The notes beneath the pieces were generated by a model. It was not told where the DNA came from, ran no database searches, and was given only the letters and a program-made list of their open reading frames with translations. A stretch of DNA of 64,000 nucleotides, from assembly GCA_013177895.1 (NCBI GenBank), contig JABLXV010000032.1, positions 1 to 64,000 of the forward strand. Direction: 5' to 3'. The stretch comes from Brevinematales bacterium (GTDB lineage: Bacteria; Spirochaetota; Brevinematia; Brevinematales; GWF1-51-8). The translations under genes were made by a program, and so were the position numbers. Shown one piece after another: positions 36,857 to 41,211 of this stretch (the first letter of the stretch is position 1; the number at the start of each line of letters is the position of its first letter).

Positions 36857-37435
36857 TTATTTATACGTAACCTTTGCCCCTTTCGACTCTGAGAGAATAT
36901 CGGTGGTTTCAAGGTAGAGATTGAAGTACTTTATTTTCGCGATACCGAAATTGAACTCCAAATCCTGCAAGACCCGCTGCTGTATCCGCTCGGAGAATCT
37001 TACAAAATCGTTCTTTTCATCGGCGTCTATCCAGAGATTGATCCCTACCATATTATCTTTTTGTATATCGATCCGCGCTTCGCAATGATGTACGCCGCCC
37101 AATCCCGAAACCGTATCCCGGATGAACATCTCGACCGCGCCCCGTCCGAGAAAGACGCTTCCCTTCTCGCCATGAACCGAAAGGTATTCAGACGAGAGAC
37201 GCGAGAATAAACGGAACGCGAGAATCACTACCGGGATACATACCAGAACTCCCGCCGCGATTCCGAGAAATTGAAAGATCGGTATCCCCGTCTTTCCCGC
37301 GAACAGCTCCTCCAGGTTAGTGCCGGGATAGTAACTCATAAACACCCGGTAGAGGAGTATGCCTATCAGTACGGATATCCCGATGTAGAAATAGAGGAAA
37401 ATCAGGCTAAATCTTTGCAGCAGCTTCTTTTTCAT
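36857..37435 (-). CDS. AmaP-like membrane anchor of Asp23
   Basis: A 192-residue protein with two membrane helices (about 8-32 and 48-75) and a cytoplasmic domain resembling Asp23 (VSGLGGVHHCEARIDIQKDN). This is the layout of AmaP, which tethers Asp23 to the membrane in Gram-positive bacteria. AAGGA precedes the start, which lies 29 bases inside the asp23-like gene, so the two are tightly coupled. Their role in a diderm is not known; envelope stress handling is an inference. Confidence 0.8.
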   Translation of the reverse strand: MKKKLLQRFSLIFLYFYIGISVLIGILLYRVFMSYYPGTNLEELFAGKTGIPIFQFLGIAAGVLVCIPVVILAFRLFSRLSSEYLSVHGEKGSVFLGRGAVEMFIRDTVSGLGGVHHCEARIDIQKDNMVGINLWIDADEKNDFVRFSERIQQRVLQDLEFNFGIAKIKYFNLYLETTDILSESKGAKVTYK

Positions 37436-37736
37436 CGAAGATATCCTTCACGTTCATTTCGAGCGATTTCACGTTTACCCGCGTCAGTTTGAGAAGGTTG
37501 TCGCGGATTTCCTGCGACGCCTTCTCGACCGTCTTGATGACGTCCGCGCCGTAACGCACGTCCACATCCGCGGCAATATCCACCGACGACGACCCGGCAT
37601 AGTTCATCTTCAGGGGTGAACTTACCAGCCTTATCGGCATCCGCCTCACATGGAGTCTCATGTCGGGGTTGCGCGATATAGTATGCCGGACCATGCTTTC
37701 CAGTCCGTACTTATCGACATTAACGCGGTTTCTCAA
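37407..37736 (-). CDS. Asp23/Gls24 family protein
   Basis: A 109-residue protein of the Asp23 (alkaline shock) family, recognised from SSVDIAADVDVRYGADVIKT followed by VEKASQEIRDNLLKLTRVNV. It sits between accC and the AmaP-like gene, the position that yqhY holds after accC in Bacillus. In Firmicutes this protein influences acetyl-CoA carboxylase activity and envelope homeostasis, which is relevant given the unusual accB next door. Confidence 0.85.
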   Translation of the reverse strand: MRNRVNVDKYGLESMVRHTISRNPDMRLHVRRMPIRLVSSPLKMNYAGSSSVDIAADVDVRYGADVIKTVEKASQEIRDNLLKLTRVNVKSLEMNVKDIFDEKEAAAKI

Positions 37737-37749
37737 ACGGGTCTCCTAT

Positions 37750-39084
37750 CTAGAACTTAAAATCTTCCAAAAATTTCGTCGTATATTCGCCGCTTTTGTA
37801 TACCTTGTTATCCATCACCTTCTGGTGGAACGGGATGGTGGTCTTGATGCCCTCGATACGGAATTCGTCCAAAGCACGCTTCATACGCGCGATAGCTTCC
37901 TCGCGGTTCTTACCCCATGTCAGCAGTTTCGCGACAAGGGAATCATAGAATTTTGGAATTTCATATCCGGCATACACATGCGAATCGATACGTACTCCGG
38001 GGCCGCCCGGGAAGTGCAGGGTGCTGATAGTGCCCGGCGTGGGCATAAAGTTCATATGCGGGTCTTCGGCGTTGATGCGGCATTCGATCGCGTGATTGCG
38101 GAAAACAACGTCGTCCTGGGTGAACGAGAGTTTCTCGCCCATCGCGACACGTATCTGTTCCTTGAGGATATCCAGCCCGGTCGCGAGCTCGGTCACGCAG
38201 TGCTCGACCTGGATACGGGTATTGACTTCCATGAAGTAGAATTTTCCGCCCTCGAACAGGAACTCCATCGTCCCTACCCCGGTATACCCGACATGCTTGA
38301 CTCCCTTGACGCAGGCCGCGCCGATTTCCGCGCGGGTCTTGGGGTCGAGTACGGGACTGGGGGATTCTTCTATCAGTTTCTGGTGACGGCGCTGGATAGA
38401 ACAGTCGCGCTCGCCCAGATGAACGACATTACCGTGGTTATCGGCGATAAACTGGATTTCGATATGGCGAGGATTTTCGAGATACTTCTCGACATATACG
38501 TCGGGGTTGCCGAACGCGGTCTTGGCCTCGCCCTGCGCGATCGGGATGATCTTACGCAGTTCGTCGTGACTCCACGCGACGCGCATACCCTTTCCGCCGC
38601 CGCCCGCCGTCGCTTTTACGATCACGGGGTAGTTCACTTCCTGGGCAAAATTGACCGCTTCCTCGACATCTGTGATAATCCCGGTACCGGGAGTGATCGG
38701 GACGTTAACTTCCAGCATCGTCTTACGCGCCGTAGCCTTATCGCCGAGAAGGTCGATTACCTCCGGCTTAGGGCCGATAAACGTAATTTTATGCTCGGCG
38801 CAGATGCGCGCGAATTTCGAATTTTCCGCGAGGAACCCGTACCCCGGATGGATCGCGTCGGCTCCGCTGATCTCGGCCGCGCTGATGATCGCGGGAATCT
38901 TCAGGTACGATTCCGGCGAAGGCGCTGGTCCGATACAGATGTCCTGGTCGGCAAGCTTGGTATGCAGAGACGTTTCATCCGCTTCGGAATGAATCGCGAC
39001 AGTCGGTATCTCCAGTTCTTTCGCGGCGCGGATTACACGTACCGCGATCTCGCCTCTGTTGGCAATTAATATTTTACGAAACAT
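37750..39084 (-). CDS. accC: Biotin carboxylase of acetyl-CoA carboxylase
   Basis: A 444-residue biotin carboxylase of normal length. Motifs are intact: KILIANRGEIAVRVIRAAKE at the start, the ATP-grasp glycine loop KATAGGGGKGMRV, and EVNTRIQVEHCVTELATGLD with the catalytic arginine. It carboxylates carrier-bound biotin using bicarbonate and ATP. It follows accB by nine bases, yet that AccB has no biotin-accepting lysine. Either another carrier protein serves it or the pair works differently. Confidence 0.96.
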   Translation of the reverse strand: MFRKILIANRGEIAVRVIRAAKELEIPTVAIHSEADETSLHTKLADQDICIGPAPSPESYLKIPAIISAAEISGADAIHPGYGFLAENSKFARICAEHKITFIGPKPEVIDLLGDKATARKTMLEVNVPITPGTGIITDVEEAVNFAQEVNYPVIVKATAGGGGKGMRVAWSHDELRKIIPIAQGEAKTAFGNPDVYVEKYLENPRHIEIQFIADNHGNVVHLGERDCSIQRRHQKLIEESPSPVLDPKTRAEIGAACVKGVKHVGYTGVGTMEFLFEGGKFYFMEVNTRIQVEHCVTELATGLDILKEQIRVAMGEKLSFTQDDVVFRNHAIECRINAEDPHMNFMPTPGTISTLHFPGGPGVRIDSHVYAGYEIPKFYDSLVAKLLTWGKNREEAIARMKRALDEFRIEGIKTTIPFHQKVMDNKVYKSGEYTTKFLEDFKF

Positions 39085-39093
39085 CGCGCCCTC

Positions 39094-39537
39094 CTATTTC
39101 TCAAAACGCATGATCGGCTGACCGTATTCTATCGGCTGGCCTTCTTCGATTAAGATTTCCTTCACCTTCCCTTCGTCATCCGCGACCACGTCCTGCATTA
39201 TCCCTAACACACGGACATGCGCGATAATATCGCCCTTCTTCACGGTGTCGCGAAGCTTGATGTAGTATTCCCCGGTCTTGGTGTTCAGACGGGTAAAAAA
39301 TCCCACCCATTTCGAACGGAGCTCAAAGACGCTGTCAGACGAATCTTTCGCCTGCGCGCCGTCCGTACCGGTCTGCGCGGGTGCGGTAGGAACCGCCGCG
39401 GGAGCCGCCTTTACGGGCGCGGGCTTACCGCCCATCACCATCCGCAGGCGACCTTCGGGTGTCTCAATCTCGATCTCGCCCACATCCGAAGTTTTGAATA
39501 TATCCTGAATCTCTTTCATATCTTTCACGTTAAACAT
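39094..39537 (-). CDS. accB: AccB homologue lacking the biotinylated lysine
   Basis: A 147-residue protein with the usual AccB plan: a helical N-terminus (MKEIQDIFKTSDVGEIEIET), an Ala/Pro-rich linker (about 50-72) and a lipoyl/biotinyl domain (about 75-147) ending EEGQPIEYGQPIMRFEK. At the biotinyl hairpin the expected EAMKMMNQI-like motif reads RVLGIMQDV. The lysine becomes Gly112 (codon GGG, 39202-39204) and the Glu, Ala and Met before it are also changed. The frame is continuous and flanking residues are conserved, so this is not a simple frameshift. As written it cannot carry biotin. It may be a regulatory or structural paralogue comparable to plant BADC proteins. Confidence 0.9.
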   Translation of the reverse strand: MFNVKDMKEIQDIFKTSDVGEIEIETPEGRLRMVMGGKPAPVKAAPAAVPTAPAQTGTDGAQAKDSSDSVFELRSKWVGFFTRLNTKTGEYYIKLRDTVKKGDIIAHVRVLGIMQDVVADDEGKVKEILIEEGQPIEYGQPIMRFEK

Positions 39538-39562: not shown

Positions 39563-40123
39563 TTACTTTACACGCTCAATATAGCGGTCGTCACGGGTAT
39601 CGACTTTTATTTTTTCACCTTTCTGGACAAAAAGCGGAACCAGCACCATCGCCCCGGTCTCGAGGGTGGCGGGTTTGGTACCCCCGGATACCGTATCCCC
39701 GCGCAGGCCGGGGTCGGTCTCGACTATCTCCAGTTCGACGAACATCGGGGGTTCGACCAGTATGACTTCCCCGTCATATATATGAAGCGTACAGATCATT
39801 TCATCCTTGAGGTACTTCTGGTCTTCGGCTAACGTTGTCGAAGGAATATGGTGCTGATCGAACGTTTCGGTATCCATGAATACGTAGCTGTTGTCGCTTT
39901 CTTTATAAAGAAGCTGCGCGGCTTTTTTCTCGACATACGCCTCTTCGAACGAATCGCTGCCGCGGAACGTTTTTTCCATGACTGTGCCGCGAATAATATT
40001 TTTCAGACGGGTGCGCATGACCGCGCCGCCCTTACCGGGCTTATGATTCTGCGACCAGAGCACGAGGTATAATTCCCCGTCCATCTTGATCACATTTCCT
40101 TTACGGATATCCGTGTAAAACAT
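39563..40123 (-). CDS. efp: Elongation factor P
   Basis: A 186-residue EF-P with the normal three-domain length. The tip of domain I reads NHKPGKGGAVMRTRLKNI, keeping the lysine at the position modified in many bacteria, and domain III ends with VQKGEKIKVDTRDDRYIERV. It relieves ribosomes stalled at proline runs. It lies between pepP and accB, as in many Firmicutes. No EpmA- or EpmB-type modification gene is seen here. Confidence 0.96.
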   Translation of the reverse strand: MFYTDIRKGNVIKMDGELYLVLWSQNHKPGKGGAVMRTRLKNIIRGTVMEKTFRGSDSFEEAYVEKKAAQLLYKESDNSYVFMDTETFDQHHIPSTTLAEDQKYLKDEMICTLHIYDGEVILVEPPMFVELEIVETDPGLRGDTVSGGTKPATLETGAMVLVPLFVQKGEKIKVDTRDDRYIERVK

Positions 40124-40140: not shown

Positions 40141-41211
40141 TTACAAATCATAAGACGTATGGGTCAGTACTTCCGCGCCGTCTTTTCTCACGGCGACCAC
40201 GTCCTCAAGACGGACGCCGCCCTTACCGGGAAGATATATCCCCGGTTCGACCGTAAACACCATCCCCTCGCTGAGAACCGTCTCGGAGTTCGTGGTGATA
40301 CGCGGAGCCTCGTGAATCTCCATCCCCACCCCATGCCCCGTGGAATGCGTGAAGAAGGCGCCGTATCCCGCCCTGTCGATCACATCGAACGCGGCCATAT
40401 GCACCAGCTTCGCGGGAATACCCGGGCGTATCGCTCTCTGGGCGGCTTTTAACGCTTCCAGAACGATGCGGTGGATTTTATCAAATTCCGAGCCTAATAT
40501 TTTACCAAAATATAAGCATCTTGTAAAGTCCGAGCAGTATCCGTCTTTAAGAATCCCGAAATCGAACAGTACAATCTCGTTCTTTTCGATTTTTTTCATA
40601 CTCGCGAGCCCGTGGGGGAGCGCGGAACGCGGCCCGGAGGCGCAAATCGTATCGAACGACATCTTTTCAGCGCCCTGTATCCGCAGGTAATGCTCCAACA
40701 TCGCGGCGGTCTCGATCTCCGTTTTGCCCTCTTCGACATTGCGGAGGATATAATGATAACCGAGCTCGGTAATACGGATATTGCGCCGGATAGTCTCGAT
40801 CTCGATCTCGTCCTTTATCATCCGCATCTCACGGATCACCTCGCAGTACTTGAAGCGGATTTCGGGGATATCCCCCTCTATTTTCCGCATCATCGAGACC
40901 CTGACGTCGTCGGGGTTGAGAAGCAGAGTCTGGATAGTATGACCGGAAATCAATTCCGCGAGCACCTTAGTCAGCGAATTCCCCGGCGATACTTCCATCA
41001 GGTAACCGTTGACCTGCGTTTCCTCACGGTACTGCTGGGTAAACCTGCCGTCGGTGATAAAATACAGCTCGTCGCCTGTTATGAGGCAATAGGCGCTATC
41101 CCCGGTGAATCCGGTCAGATAACCGACGTCCTCCGGCAGAATCGCGAACAGGGCTTCGTTCGCCTTCAATTGTTTCCGCACATTTTCCAAACGCAGTTCA
41201 AATCGATTCAT
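40141..41211 (-). CDS. M24 family Xaa-Pro peptidase
   Basis: A 356-residue aminopeptidase P/prolidase-type enzyme. An N-terminal creatinase-like domain (about 1-130) is followed by the pita-bread domain. The five metal ligands are visible: aspartates in [18 protein letters not shown], histidine in [15 protein letters not shown], and glutamates in [10 protein letters not shown] and GVRLEDVV. It removes N-terminal residues ahead of proline or splits X-Pro dipeptides. It lies directly upstream of efp, an association conserved in many bacteria. Confidence 0.93.

Follow-up and report, generated by a model that had tools for sequence, protein, structure and literature searches.

How does an AccB that has lost the residue to which biotin is attached come to be kept next to an intact biotin carboxylase gene, and what might it do there? 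The window analyzed here, a 64,000-nucleotide stretch of DNA from a Brevinematales bacterium, contains such a gene on its reverse strand (39094..39537; 147 aa, ATG start), whose product we call AccB*, a lysine-less AccB paralog. A preliminary description of this DNA had reported that glycine replaces the biotin-accepting lysine. The open reading frame and the substitution were both confirmed: the hairpin reads HVRVLGIMQDV, and in an alignment with 92 lysine-containing carriers the biotin position falls on Gly112 (GGG; 39202..39204, reverse strand). AccB* scores 69.1 bits against TIGR00531 across residues 3–146, under the cut-off of 115.2, and 40.1 bits against PF00364, over the cut-off of 22.1. 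Lysine-less orthologs were found in other genomes, and a profile built from the AccB* family matched E. coli BCCP (4hr7_B) end to end (E = 2.3e-29). On these family and profile matches, the protein is firmly assignable to AccB. A full-length AlphaFold model (mean pLDDT 45.8), in which the N-terminal domain was not confidently modelled, was set aside. A model of the biotinyl domain only reached moderate confidence (mean pLDDT 61.1) and served fold recognition alone; Foldseek returned E. coli BCCP from its complex with BC (4hr7_G) as the best match, with a TM of 0.81, and Arabidopsis BCCP1 was also matched.

All neighboring genes considered here lie on the reverse strand as well. The accC gene (37750..39084) starts 9 bases past the AccB* stop codon, and direct reading of the sequence places Shine-Dalgarno-like, purine-rich stretches ahead of both genes. 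AccC had been described as intact, in agreement with its score of 713.9 bits against TIGR00514 (cut-off 626.5). Immediately upstream of AccB*, gene order and the open reading frame identify efp, encoding elongation factor P (39563..40123), and beyond it lies a pepP-like Xaa-Pro aminopeptidase gene (40141..41211), recognized by its open reading frame and gene order, named from its own sequence, and retained in Brevinematales. Past accC, two genes spanning 36857–37736 score slightly below curated cut-offs, an Asp23-like gene (37407..37736; Pfam Asp23, 24.6 bits against a cut-off of 28) and a gene for an AmaP-like membrane protein (36857..37435; NF033218, 53.7 bits against 55). By sequence, both have the look of divergent representatives of the two families, which are envelope-related. 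The preliminary description had Asp23 following accC; a gene does stand at that position, and its Asp23 assignment is weakly supported by the sub-threshold score.

A lysine-less AccB beside accC calls for a carrier elsewhere if the carboxylase is to be complete. A PF00364 search of the genome, in which the window lies on contig C32, located another carrier, on contig C7. It is an AccB of 169 aa with a normal biotin site (EAMKVMNEI), and its gene follows an aspartate aminotransferase gene at a distance of 12 bases. This protein scores 123.4 bits against TIGR00531, above the cut-off that AccB* fails to reach. The same genome encodes AccA (321 aa), AccD, and a ligase of the BirA type, and genome searches found a single AccC, the one in the AccB* operon. 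The cell would therefore have a complete acetyl-CoA carboxylase, the enzyme with which fatty-acid synthesis begins, plus an extra AccB*, and a genome short of other carboxylase parts is ruled out. The second AccB with an intact motif, AccA, AccD, and BirA, all of which the preliminary description had proposed looking for, are thus present.

In an effort to determine how widely the loss is shared, 60 relatives and then 392 Spirochaetota genomes, most of them metagenome assemblies, were surveyed, and the DNA of more than 100 carrier loci was read. A contig search matched only Brevinematales. Thirty lysine-less AccB* proteins from 17 family codes were confirmed, all in Spirochaetota, with glycine (23), histidine (3), asparagine (3), or glutamine (1) at the biotin site. 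Lysine is absent from this position in 30/30 AccB* proteins but present in 92/92 carriers of the other two groups, namely single-copy AccBs and carriers co-resident with AccB* (one of the 92 is a PycB-like carrier), a distribution that rules out chance loss. Sequencing error is likewise ruled out, as glycine occupies the site in all four independently assembled congeneric genomes. Among these congeners, dN/dS (NG86) is 0.055–0.134 for AccB* and 0.033–0.085 for the true AccB; the values are comparable, and the AccB* gene is therefore under purifying selection. Loss of a catalytic residue could in principle mark a decaying pseudogene or an assembly error, a reading whose probability we regard as negligible and which is refuted by conservation across 30 genomes, with no in-frame stops, and by the low dN/dS; in four relatives of the order, moreover, the biotinyl domain is 77–95% identical to that of the window. 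It is also very improbable that AccB* is a carrier modified at some other residue or serving some other carboxylase. It does have a biotinyl/lipoyl-domain fold, but the hairpin-tip lysine is found in none of the 30 proteins, the site varies among G, H, N, and Q, the Glu, Ala, and Asn around it have also been lost, and a normal carrier is present with only one AccC to serve.

The genomic context of AccB* points to the carboxylase. The accC gene adjoins the AccB* gene in 25/30 cases, and the order efp–AccB*–accC occurs in at least 19 of the 30. A biotinylated AccB was found in 26/30 AccB*-bearing genomes, often encoded beside an aspartate aminotransferase gene. One more genome (G040) has a possible partial copy, and no biotinylated AccB was found in three assemblies (G008, G030, G058) that are only 80–86% complete. 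In genomes without AccB*, the normal AccB gene mostly adjoins accC. The aspartate aminotransferase linkage, seen for example at locus L001 (25–1734), where the biotinylated accB comes straight after that gene, is conserved in many AccB*-bearing genomes for no obvious reason. Four Brevinematales genomes of one family (f4; G006, G009, G011, G012) were found to have neither AccC nor an AccB of either kind, and their biotin-domain matches are exclusively carriers of the oxaloacetate-decarboxylase type. These genomes are small, and the loss of AccC together with both AccB forms suggests, from gene content, that they have no fatty-acid synthesis of their own. The linkage to accC and the absence of AccB* from this family, which is without AccC, tie AccB* to the carboxylase.

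One family departs from this arrangement. In f5 (Brevinematia) the AccB* gene lies apart from accC, and in four genomes (G013, G014, G016, G017; loci L184 4131–5880, L185 4599–6327, L054 1624–3352, and L186 1224–2964) it abuts or overlaps a membrane sensor kinase gene, three of them showing an 8-bp overlap. The sensor kinases of G013, G014, and G017 were confirmed to have HisKA, HATPase_c, and PAS-like domains. Placed beside a histidine kinase gene and not beside accC, at least some members may act elsewhere, and a recruitment of the f5 AccB* into signalling is possible on this gene arrangement. These four genomes are the argument that AccB* is no longer part of acetyl-CoA carboxylase and has become a signalling or structural protein whose operon position is merely retained. 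We consider this improbable, given that adjacency to accC persists in 25 copies across 17 family codes and that the four genomes of the window's order without AccC are also without AccB*.

Four plasmid-borne relatives were also read. In three the EAMK is normal, and two of these three are encoded beside 5-oxoprolinase genes; the fourth is lysine-less. This fourth relative, on Moraxella osloensis plasmid pNP7-5 (L227 2318–2746), is an AccB-like protein with VACMAQLLPVI in place of EAMKM, encoded beside the pxpBCA 5-oxoprolinase genes; it adds a lysine-less carrier from outside Spirochaetota to those above. The EAMK is normal in similar operons on plasmids of L. plantarum and P. aeruginosa.

Evidence on what AccB* does comes from which residues each AccB form has kept. 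Single-copy AccBs carry both the EAMK site with its neighbors and, toward the C terminus, a V-(E/D)-(Y/F) motif, which reads VEFD in E. coli. In AccB* of the window, column counts place this motif at codons 137–139 (Glu-Tyr-Gly; 39121..39129, reverse strand). Tyr or Phe at position 138 is found in 30/30 AccB* and 67/67 single-copy AccBs but in only 1/25 lysine-containing carriers that share a genome with AccB*; since the one exception is a 623-aa PycB-like protein, the count for true co-resident AccBs is 0/24. An acidic residue at 137 is present in 28/30 AccB* proteins, and the co-resident AccBs of G028 and G039, read separately, also lack the motif. The reverse holds around the biotin site: Pro76, the thumb residue Tyr82, Gly96, Glu109, Ala110, and Asn115 (25/25 in the co-resident carriers), together with Met111, are near-universal in both lysine-containing groups and mostly lost in AccB*. 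The AccB* thumb mostly retains the length of the insertion and has Tyr82 in just 5/26 and Pro87 in 1/28. These counts come from groups with shared ancestry and do not represent independent events. Such complementary degeneration is the strongest evidence that AccB* and the biotinylated AccB jointly do the former job of one AccB. AccC residues specific to AccB*-bearing genomes also exist, and these are inseparable from shared ancestry.

Phylogenetic analysis is consistent with this division. In a tree computed without the hairpin columns, a single branch (SH-aLRT 80) separates all 30 AccB* proteins from the rest. A second tree, from which the thumb, the columns of the C-terminal motif, and two further diagnostic columns were also dropped, requires only the minimum of two changes to distribute the lysine-less, co-resident, and single-copy states (support 81 and 79). 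With 122–140 columns, moderate support, and sequences from Spirochaetota, the trees fit a single duplication followed by joint inheritance of the two copies.

Taken with the linkage to accC, the results make it probable that AccB*, much like the plant BADC proteins, serves the AccC–AccB subcomplex as a non-catalytic subunit and that it arose by duplication and division of labor. An ancestral accB beside accC would have been duplicated, and one copy would have relocated, often to a site beside an aspartate aminotransferase gene, while staying biotinylated. The relocated copy would have kept the mobile biotin hairpin and thumb while its C-terminal V-E-(Y/F) surface disappeared; in the copy left beside accC, that surface would have persisted while the biotin site and thumb residues were lost. 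Most simply, AccB* would then sit on the AccC dimer in positions of the carrier type and hold or position the biotinylated AccB, much as plant plastids use BADC with BC and BCCP. A physical AccB*–AccC–AccB complex is what we infer from this arrangement, and its net effect would be on assembly or positioning, possibly with regulation. One alternative in the preliminary description had likewise been a regulator or subunit of the BADC type, the true carrier being encoded elsewhere. All the tests available to the analysis favored that proposal, under which AccB* would associate with AccC and have a structural or a regulatory effect. None of the outcomes it had named against itself (a normal EAMKM in relatives, missing carboxylase parts, or decay of accC) occurred; the four congeners share the glycine.

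The main rival to a structural subunit is a dedicated negative regulator, in which AccB* would compete with biotinylated AccB for AccC and throttle malonyl-CoA synthesis on a signal. Plant BADCs have been described as inhibitors that rival BCCP for BC (PMC7712654; view relayed in PMC11926652), an Asp23-like gene ends the operon here while YqhY restrains the carboxylase in B. subtilis (PMC5437119), and a sensor histidine kinase accompanies the f5 AccB*. The Asp23 match, however, is under its cut-off, and a motif universal in single-copy AccBs has gone from the biotinylated paralog, which suggests dependence on AccB* and not mere competition with it. We rate a dedicated regulator as unlikely, though a serious contender. 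In a bolder form of the cooperating-subunit proposal, AccB would have divided, in a bacterial lineage, into two halves that work only together, one serving as biotinylated arm and the other, without the lysine, as docking subunit, and the architecture of acetyl-CoA carboxylase would differ accordingly; one family would then have coupled its docking subunit to a membrane sensor histidine kinase, tying the state of the carboxylase to signalling. We offer this as a speculative picture with some chance of being correct.

If AccB* and AccB divide the work as proposed, the partition of motifs predicts which AccB surface docks on AccC and which serves only biotin. It also means that an accB beside accC is not safely the carrier, which affects both annotation and pathway models.

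Several known systems resemble this locus in part. AccB* shares with bacterial AccB/BCCP (TIGR00531; E. coli 4hr7, 1bdo) the two-part layout, the biotinyl-domain fold, and the accC neighborhood, and it differs in that the biotin lysine and the thumb Tyr and Pro are gone and the score falls below the equivalog cut-off. The AccB of B. subtilis is, unlike AccB*, a normal biotinylated subunit. The glue subunits of actinobacterial acyl-CoA carboxylases are small unrelated proteins and not carrier paralogs. In gene order, the accBC-yqhY operon of B. subtilis may be like the operon in the window (accB-type, accC, Asp23-like), with the Asp23 match here sub-threshold, and the Asp23-family protein YqhY of B. 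subtilis is the one reported to restrain acetyl-CoA carboxylase (PMC5437119). Actinobacterial acyl-CoA carboxylases likewise have non-catalytic "glue" subunits (PMC11926652), which makes them similar to AccB* as proposed, in that both are non-catalytic carboxylase subunits of bacteria.

The closest likeness is to plant BADC. Arabidopsis BADC1–3 are, as AccB* is, BCCP paralogs without the biotinylation motif, with the true BCCP encoded separately in the genome. The AMKL motif is missing from them, they bind both BC and BCCP, and their role has been interpreted as that of assembly "glue" but also as that of inhibitors (PMC11926652, PMC7712654). A 2025 paper described BADC as unique to the plant enzyme (PMC11926652), and the titles and abstracts returned by a full-text literature search on BADC and acetyl-CoA carboxylase named no bacterial counterpart. 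Our claim concerns function and not descent: by analogy, AccB* may work like a BADC. Its origin was probably independent, with which the single AccB* grouping within Spirochaetota is consistent. Whether BADC acts as glue or as inhibitor is disputed, and a bacterial counterpart in which the motifs are naturally and reciprocally partitioned would offer a clean system that is testable in E. coli. AccB* differs from plant BADC in being bacterial, in being encoded in the accC operon, and in having a biotinylated partner that has reciprocally lost the V-E-(Y/F) motif, and it is this reciprocal motif loss that is new here.
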